DNA of 64,000 bases, from the NCBI RefSeq assembly GCF_002024165.1, contig NZ_MWQN01000001.1:1426001-1490000 (forward strand), written 5' to 3'. The notes under the pieces were generated by a model. That model worked only from the letters and a program-made list of their open reading frames with translations, had not been told where the DNA came from and did no database searches. Of this stretch, positions 39,695 through 40,820 are shown one piece after another. Both the position numbers and the translations under genes were made by a program. Positions within the stretch are counted from its first letter, which is position 1; every line of letters begins with the position of its first letter. Source of the stretch: Embleya scabrispora (GTDB lineage Bacteria > Actinomycetota > Actinomycetes > Streptomycetales > Streptomycetaceae).

Positions 39695-40606
39695 TCATGA
39701 CTGGAACGCTCGCCGCACGAGCCCGGCCACTCGTCCCCGGCGGAGCGTGTCGTGCCAGGTGAAACGCAGTACCAGGGCGCCCACGAGGGCGAGTTCGTTG
39801 GCCCTGGCCCGATCGCGATACAGCGCGTCGGGCCGCGAGTGCACGTCCACGCCGTCCGCTTCCGCGAAGACGGGCCGCAAGCCGGTGAGCCACGCGAGGT
39901 CCACCCGGGCCCGACCGCCGCCGGGTAGGGCGACCTCGTGCTGCAACTCGTCCGGCGCGACCCCGCCGCGCACGCAGTCGAGCCGTACCCGCGACTCCAA
40001 CGGGCTCTCGGCTCGACCGTCCGCTATCGCGAGCAGTGGTCGCACCCTGCCCGCGCCGGGACGGCCCGCCGACGCCCGCTCGATCCGCGCGAGGTCCGCC
40101 TCCCGCACCAGCCCCAGGTGCAGCGCCGAGTCGAGCACCGCGAGACCTTCCTCGGGTGACAACCTCGGGACGAGGTCGGCGAGGGTGCGCACCGGCGTCG
40201 TCACCGGCAGGCCGTCCACCATCACGATCTCGTCGGCTCGCAGCCGGCGGCGATACGCCACGATCCCCGGCCCGCCACGACGCGAGGCGGTGTCGGGCGT
40301 CGCCACGTGCACACATCCCTCGGGTGGCACGCCACGCATCCCGTGCAAACGGGCCGCACTGTGCAATACGGCGACGGCCCGCTCCCCATACGCCGCGAGC
40401 CCGGCGCGCAACCTCCCGCGCGAGGAGAGCACACATCGATCGGCATCGACGAGCCCCACGCCGCGTGCGATCTCGCGCACCTTCCCAGCATTCACGAGCC
40501 TTCGCCACACCTGTCCGGATACTCCGGCGGATGTCGCTCGATCCCGTGTCACCACTCCGTCGTACTGCCATGCCAGCTCCCGCAGGATTCGTAGGGCCTC
40601 TTCCAT
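39695..40606 (-). CDS. AbiEi-like winged-helix / DUF559 nuclease-fold protein
   Basis: A 303-residue protein of the actinobacterial AbiEi-DUF559 type. The N-terminal ~80 residues have a winged-helix/AbiEi-like pattern (GVVTRDRATSAGVSGQVWRRLV). Residues ~185-300 resemble the Vsr/DUF559 endonuclease fold: ESPLESRVRLD, GRARVDLAWL, FAEADGVDVHS with the catalytic-type Glu-Asp, and YRDRARANEL then VLRFTWHD. In this fold Asp/Glu residues coordinate metal for DNA cleavage. No cognate AbiEii toxin gene is adjacent. ATG at 40606 fits the N-terminus, though the ribosome site is weak. Its upstream region holds two perfect DnaA boxes. Function could be phage defence, mobile-element remnant or repair; unproven. 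Confidence 0.7.
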   Translation of the reverse strand: MEEALRILRELAWQYDGVVTRDRATSAGVSGQVWRRLVNAGKVREIARGVGLVDADRCVLSSRGRLRAGLAAYGERAVAVLHSAARLHGMRGVPPEGCVHVATPDTASRRGGPGIVAYRRRLRADEIVMVDGLPVTTPVRTLADLVPRLSPEEGLAVLDSALHLGLVREADLARIERASAGRPGAGRVRPLLAIADGRAESPLESRVRLDCVRGGVAPDELQHEVALPGGGRARVDLAWLTGLRPVFAEADGVDVHSRPDALYRDRARANELALVGALVLRFTWHDTLRRGRVAGLVRRAFQS

Positions 40607-40657
40607 TCCCGGATCCTGGTCCGTACGGCCGGTCGCGGGGTGCCGGCGAGGGGGAGC

Positions 40658-40684
40658 TGTGGACAACCGGGCACTTGTGGACAA
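40658..40684 (-). promoter_or_regulatory. Two perfect DnaA boxes (TTGTCCACA) upstream of the AbiEi-DUF559 gene
   Basis: TGTGGACAA occurs at 40658-40666 and 40676-40684, the exact complement of the actinomycete DnaA box TTGTCCACA, 18 bp apart centre to centre. A partial third copy (TTGTGGCGC) follows at 40686. They lie in the 214-bp gap between the AbiEi-DUF559 and metallophosphoesterase genes. No AT-rich unwinding region or replication gene is adjacent, so this is not oriC. Confidence 0.7.
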
Positions 40685-40820
40685 CTTGTGGCGCGCTTTG
40701 CCGGATTCGCGGATGATCTTCAGCTGCTCGACACCTTCATGATCATCGAGGGCCGCCGAACGGCCGGCCCCAACCGGTGTGATGGACGCGTCCCCACCGC
40801 CTCCCGTCCCGAGGATCGCC

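Follow-up and report, generated by a model that had tools for sequence, protein, structure and literature searches.

The window analyzed here is a 64,000-nt stretch (C1:1426001-1490000) of the genome of Embleya, which comprises 10.96 Mb in 8 contigs. On its minus strand, the window carries an intact gene for a predicted nuclease, and two copies of the DnaA box TTGTCCACA lie upstream of the start codon (Table 1). The encoded protein belongs to the AbiEi family (PF09407, 25.4 bits against a cut-off of 22.2) and is likewise matched as AbiEi by PADLOC (E 5.2e-25). In an AlphaFold model (pLDDT 93.5, pTM 0.89, 46 sequences), residues 3-196 align with the AbiEi antitoxin 6y8q_A (Z 11.3, rmsd 5.7, 184 aligned), residues 201-303 with the catalytic domain of I-Bth0305I (3r3p_A; Z 11.6, rmsd 2.4, 92 aligned), and residues 199-303 with the Vsr-DNA structure 1cw0_A (Z 9.8, rmsd 2.2, 97 aligned), all by VIA-align. 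The protein is thereby predicted to consist of an AbiEi-like part and a Vsr/I-Bth0305I-type nuclease. E204 does not vary across the 46 sequences, and D236, E249 and D265 hardly do. The Pfam model MTES_1575 aligns at E 0.13 (12.8 bits against a cut-off of 38.2), and NCBIfam has no family for the 303-aa protein.

The gene is under purifying selection, with dN/dS values of 0.17-0.30 among four same-genus copies. Its nearest named relative is found in Embleya hyalina (95% protein identity), homologues beyond the genus are 29-45% identical overall, and plasmid records yielded no homologue at 1e-8. The three neighbors that were scanned are of the ada/alkA, ogt and metallophosphoesterase types, and none of them is an AbiEii nucleotidyltransferase toxin. 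An AbiE toxin-antitoxin pair was rejected on this ground, and the defence role imagined in an earlier, sequence-only reading of this DNA loses its footing with the absence of the AbiEii partner from these three genes. A scan of the window against Rfam returned no RNA family.

Table 1 Features of the nuclease locus (window positions).
Feature	Position	Strand	Basis and remarks
AbiEi-like + Vsr-like predicted nuclease gene (P0001)	39695..40606	minus	ORF and translation, which places the ATG at 40606; 303 aa; intact
Winged helix + AbiEi domain (codons 1-196)	40019..40606	minus	model and AbiEi structural alignment
Putative Vsr/EDxHD-type nuclease domain (codons 199-303)	39698..40012	minus	structural alignment and conserved acidic residues
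-10-like hexamer CAGGAT	40613..40618	minus	six bases 5' of ATG; putative leaderless promoter
Proximal DnaA box TTGTCCACA, then G	40658..40666	minus	exact match; start -60 from ATG
Distal DnaA box TTGTCCACA	40676..40684	minus	exact match; start -78 from ATG

Conservation and frequency of the box pair

The window has just two exact copies of the 9-mer TTGTCCACA, both on the strand of the nuclease gene, where shuffling predicts 0.15; two copies were reached in 1 of 100 shuffles. The boxes are offset by 18 bp, which corresponds to a gap of 9 bp, and the sequence-only reading was accurate in placing two perfect boxes at this distance upstream of an AbiEi/nuclease gene. When four Embleya-type genomes are aligned, the spacer drifts while both boxes and the -10 region stay: the proximal box is exact in all four, the distal box is exact in three and has one base changed in the fourth, and CAGGAT is kept except for its first base. 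A partial third box had also been described. A CCACA-type remnant does lie just upstream, but it is not conserved across the four same-genus genomes, and a conserved third box was discarded. The gene, at C1:1.466 Mb, is indeed located far from oriC, with dnaA and dnaN at about C1:3.332-3.335 Mb. A role in local replication, which had been offered as an option, was dropped, since the window contains two exact boxes only and no origin-like cluster. What is found upstream of the gene is the pattern that was sought for a DnaA-controlled promoter, namely a consensus box that is near the promoter, present above chance and conserved.

Across the 10.96-Mb genome, single copies of TTGTCCACA are not over-represented (44 against 37 of the reversed motif), and its genome-wide over-representation was rejected; TTATCCACA is over-represented (14 against 4 reversed). 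The tandem arrangement TTRTCCACA N0-30 TTRTCCACA is present 5 times, compared with 0 in the control, and among 16 genomes same-strand pairs within 30 bp number 41, compared with 1 for the reversed control. The earlier claim that the pair exceeds chance is borne out by these counts. Of these 41 close pairs, 16 share the window's offset of precisely 18 bp. With up to 3 mismatches allowed, 15 places in the own genome fit the 18-bp pair pattern, compared with 7 that fit its reverse. The window is one of the three best matches, together with a site 5' of an ssb paralogue and one in the gap that separates purS from an lsr2-like gene. The pair in this last gap (C1:3133818-3133844; L039:1501-1527, also L224) is kept in the same-genus genome G001. 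Finally, a G directly follows 21 of 26 intergenic boxes compared with 8 of 18 boxes in genes, a count that covers 44 loci out of the 58 exact boxes in the genome.

Boxes upstream of homologues of the nuclease gene

A check suggested with the earlier reading, whether other AbiEi/DUF559-type genes carry such boxes, gave a positive answer in two sets of homologues. Among 78 homologue loci from the own genus, family and class, an exact TTRTCCACA is present within 100 bp before the start in 21, compared with 3 of 200 neighbor genes, and the core TCCACAG in 33, compared with 4 of 200; gene starts and neighbor genes, here and below, come from a crude gene caller, and locus L051 is scored as a miss in these counts although it has boxes at -92 and -60 of its proper start. 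Within the 100 bp that precede the start, 24 exact boxes are found, 20 of them on the strand of the gene; the remaining upstream bins have 8, and none lies within or behind the gene. The second set, found by a separate route, consists of named organisms (Catellatospora, Streptomyces, Ruania, Promicromonospora, Antribacter, Aeromicrobium, Microbacterium and others), and 30 of its 37 loci were used, with 3 Embleya-type loci and 4 others left out. Here the exact box is present in 10 of 30 homologues and 1 of 129 neighbors, the single positive neighbor being another AbiEi-like gene, and the core in 22 of 30 and 3 of 129. Two named-set loci (L264 and L266) repeat loci of the first set (L053 and L052), and close relatives stand in both sets. 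Because related sequences are not independent, p-values for these enrichments, and for those at comEA and yraN described below, overstate the case.

In a pool of 91 loci, TCCACA is absent within 110 bp in 36. The remaining 55 are not an unbiased rate, because after removal of the two repeats only 13 box-bearing or near named-set loci were added to the pool. Homologues from outside the class Actinomycetes gave a marked box in 0 of 17 cases. A second homologue in the own genome (L036, C1:4834858-4835586), 34% identical, is preceded at -50 by TCGTCCACA, read on the strand opposite to the gene. In Streptacidiphilus-type homologues (L052, L053 and L054), the RVD aspartate is missing and the nuclease half looks damaged; the box is kept.

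Promoter layout

Most boxes of the pooled homologues that share the gene's strand begin between -49 and -53, between -57 and -64, or at about -70 and -78; most of those on the other strand begin between -48 and -50. These positions are phased, with a best period of 10 bp that was picked by scan (n=31, within-genus repeats having been removed for the named and Streptomycetaceae loci and mycobacterial-type loci counted singly). Of the 55 box-bearing homologues, 53% have an A at -11 and 62% a T at -7, the two bases that mark the -10-like NANNNT. Because the boxes are narrowly placed and phased, and the -10 hexamer ends six bases before the start codon, this layout suggests a leaderless message and an activator bound upstream of the -35 region. 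A box serving as the -35 element of a sigma factor was rejected, as its distance to the -10 is long and variable (box starts -48 to -78, -10 at -12).

The same element at DNA-uptake, recombination and other genes

In the own genome, boxes are also present upstream of recA (-97), recQ (-50) and yraN (-65). The yraN gene lies directly upstream of a comM-like gene, and the operon presumably continues with dprA after comM. A box pair precedes the ssb paralogue, and a Tad/Flp pilus cluster opens with a gene that has another pair upstream, one box of which is degenerate; further boxes are found at dnaA, dnaB, crgA and dgt. In other genomes, recA has boxes in G033 and G259, recQ in G006 and G033, the first Tad gene in G259, and an EVE-domain-like gene in G447. 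The names recA, recQ, Tad and EVE-like were given to box-bearing genes from reading their sequences rather than from a domain search.

Two families were examined systematically in 18 genomes. For yraN (PF02021 search), YYRTCCACA is present in 11 of 18, exact in 6, compared with 0 of 46 neighbors. For comEA, stretches of the same 18 genomes were retrieved by a ComEC search (PF03772), the own-genome stretch being without comEA, and the counts were read by eye: YYRTCCACA stands in the gap preceding comEA in 11 of 17 stretches, 7 of them exact, compared with 0 of 36 neighbor starts. Within the 87.6 kb of these stretches, all 8 exact boxes fall in the gap before comEA. In well-placed cases of the comEA type, TTGTCCACA or TTATCCACA is positioned at -60/-61, and TAATGT or TAGCGT lies six or seven bases before the ATG. 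This is the layout of the window gene, which shares both the motif and the promoter arrangement of comEA-comEC and yraN-comM-dprA. The comEA gene of Embleya itself has a degenerate box pair only, and the comEA genes of two other Embleya genomes have no intact box.

The own-genome comEC is split in two parts about 54 kb apart (C1:4624628-4625510 and C1:4679975-4682420; L340:3628-4510 and L341:11975-14420), and phage-like genes and a serine-recombinase-like gene stand beside its 3' part. Judging from these genes, an integrative element seems to lie inside this DNA-uptake channel gene.

Some DUF222-HNH genes show an 18-bp box pair at about -79/-61. An exact box within 110 bp is present at 4 of 26 such loci, compared with 0 of 37 neighbors, where the 26 are those with listed places among 30 retrieved and their gene starts are uncertain. 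Several DUF222-HNH genes of mycobacterial type (L193, L194, L195, L206 and L208) are without DnaA boxes and have a LexA-like palindrome, TTCGAA..GTTCGA, over the -10; the label follows what we take to be the LexA consensus. Box-bearing copies keep one half of this palindrome.

Boxes are found at other loci as well. Two convergent copies of TTATCCACA adjoin crgA in the own genome (C1:3351244 and 3351275; L245:6245 and 6276) and in other genomes. This pair probably corresponds to the DnaA site Rv0010c-Rv0011c of M. tuberculosis, crgA being, we assume, Rv0011c. DnaA boxes are also clustered between pheA-like and serS-like genes of two Streptomyces-type genomes (L227, L236, L237 and L242; G011 C1:4406103-4406414 and G033 C1:4919594-4919906), where the cluster might conceivably serve to titrate or reactivate DnaA.

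The proposed binder and alternative explanations

An element of defined motif, position and conservation recurs at this set of genes. Its 9-mer is identical to the high-affinity DnaA box listed for Streptomyces coelicolor and M. tuberculosis (PMC4285127). DnaA is favored as the binder because boxes occur here at dnaA, dnaB and crgA, mycobacterial DnaA binds oriC, rpmH-dnaA, the region upstream of dnaB and Rv0010c-Rv0011c (PMC7738170), and a G mostly follows the intergenic box. In the class Actinomycetes a promoter type recurs for which the boxes are the proposed control site: a DnaA box on one helix face 48-78 bp upstream is combined with NANNNT six or seven bases ahead of the start codon and a putative leaderless message. 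Promoters of this type stand before comEA-comEC, yraN-comM-dprA, recA, recQ, the ssb paralogue and the Tad/Flp pilus cluster, and also two many-copy nuclease families, the AbiEi-Vsr-like genes and part of DUF222-HNH. DnaA, as the most likely binder, would activate from upstream of the -35 region, and expression would track the amount of free DnaA, as the sequence-only reading had proposed, and hence the replication state. As the promoter type is common to the uptake and recombination genes, the window gene is most likely a nuclease of that regulon. On balance, the sequence evidence leads us to favor a DNA-uptake and recombination regulon that is marked by DnaA boxes and probably activated by DnaA, with competence as the physiological state to which it would be linked. 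Several findings weigh against this reading: the mycobacterial DnaA maps name five other regions, the 9-bp gap departs from the 2-3 bp favored by E. coli DnaA, TCCACA is missing from 36 of 91 pooled homologues, none of the 17 homologues from outside the class has a marked box, and comEA is without an intact box in two other Embleya genomes. More tentatively, and less likely than not, the element may supply the regulatory site that is missing for a competence regulon in Actinomycetes: DnaA, or another protein of like specificity, would switch on the uptake, strand-processing and nuclease set when free DnaA rises, for example when replication stalls or ends, and the AbiEi-Vsr-like and some DUF222-HNH nucleases would ride along, either processing incoming DNA or, in the manner of homing nucleases, copying themselves during active recombination.

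Several other explanations were weighed. A dedicated further activator of DNA-uptake genes might read the TCCACAG core, with DnaA uninvolved at these promoters. Such a factor would fit the mycobacterial maps, in which DnaA regions are five (oriC, rpmH-dnaA, upstream of dnaB, Rv0010c-Rv0011c and Rv3843c-RVnc0040; M. tuberculosis in vitro and M. smegmatis by ChIP-seq) and in which, as far as the available part of that report goes, com, dprA, rec and nuclease genes are not named (PMC7738170). It would also fit the looseness of the first three box positions and the prevalent 9-bp gap, as opposed to the spacing of 2-3 bp that E. coli DnaA prefers for box pairs according to the portion at hand of a further source (PMC11317965); gaps of 3-4 bp occur in some homologues (Catellatospora, G259). 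We nevertheless regard this activator as unlikely, given that the motif is identical both to the high-affinity DnaA box of S. coelicolor and M. tuberculosis (PMC4285127, available sections) and to the boxes at dnaA, dnaB and crgA of the own genome, mostly with the G after them. The boxes could also be DnaA-titration sites without effect on the adjoining gene, for which Rv0010c-Rv0011c provides a precedent: it is bound by DnaA, and its flanking genes are unchanged in dnaA mutants, again from the part of the report available (PMC7738170). Titration is made improbable by the fixed distance to the start codon, the strand preference (20 of 24) and the 10-bp phasing, and also because unrelated loci show the box before the same gene families.

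Chance, or a general intergenic enrichment of the 9-mer, is hardly credible. The similar genome-wide numbers of TTGTCCACA and its reverse (44 and 37) speak for it, but chance as the sole explanation is refuted by the neighbor-gene controls in the same loci (3/200, 1/129, 0/36 and 0/46), and conservation argues against it as well. AbiE systems are autoregulated, and the protein, which has an AbiEi-like winged helix, might bind the boxes itself as AbiEi antitoxins do. We consider this very improbable, as the box is constant while the proteins diverge (29-45% identity beyond the genus) and the same box stands at comEA, yraN, recA and DUF222 genes, whose products are without such a domain.

Relation to known systems

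The window protein shares a winged helix and AbiEi domain with the AbiE type IV toxin-antitoxin systems, but its gene is without AbiEii among the examined neighbors and is fused to a predicted nuclease domain. With the Vsr and I-Bth0305I (EDxHD) nucleases and DUF559 it has a C-terminal fold in common in the model (Z 9.8-11.6), and it differs from them in the fusion of the putative nuclease to the AbiEi-like part. The DUF222-HNH (13E12-type) genes of mycobacteria are likewise many-copy nuclease genes, some of which have the 18-bp box pair; in contrast to the window family, they encode an unrelated nuclease, and most copies are without the pair, several having a LexA-like site.

In Micrococcus luteus, comEA-comEC and the Tad pilus, encoded in two tad clusters, are known actinobacterial uptake machinery; within the main text of the two competence papers, DnaA has 0 occurrences (PMC8467076, PMC4322843, as available). 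The abstract of one of these notes that competence development is poorly known in M. luteus and in every other actinobacterium (PMC8467076). A link of DnaA boxes to the AbiEi-Vsr-like family, DUF222 or actinobacterial competence genes was not found in the open-licence literature. The conserved promoter element common to the nuclease family and the uptake and recombination genes of Actinomycetes is real and, in that literature, undescribed; shared, replication-linked control of DNA uptake is probable. The shared DnaA-type element is a directly testable candidate, through which the replication state would control DNA uptake by way of DnaA, and, if this is true, abundant many-copy nuclease genes gain a place in the cell's program.

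A further close parallel is DnaA as a transcription factor in E. coli and others; in Streptomyces lividans and slow-growing mycobacteria, dnaA itself is autoregulated. There, in the available portions of the sources, the same 9-mer is promoter-proximal at replication and repair genes (PMC8203912, PMC11317965). Compared with this known regulation, the set described here is centered on DNA-uptake, recombination and nuclease genes, the gap between boxes is mostly 9 bp, and the promoters are putatively leaderless.
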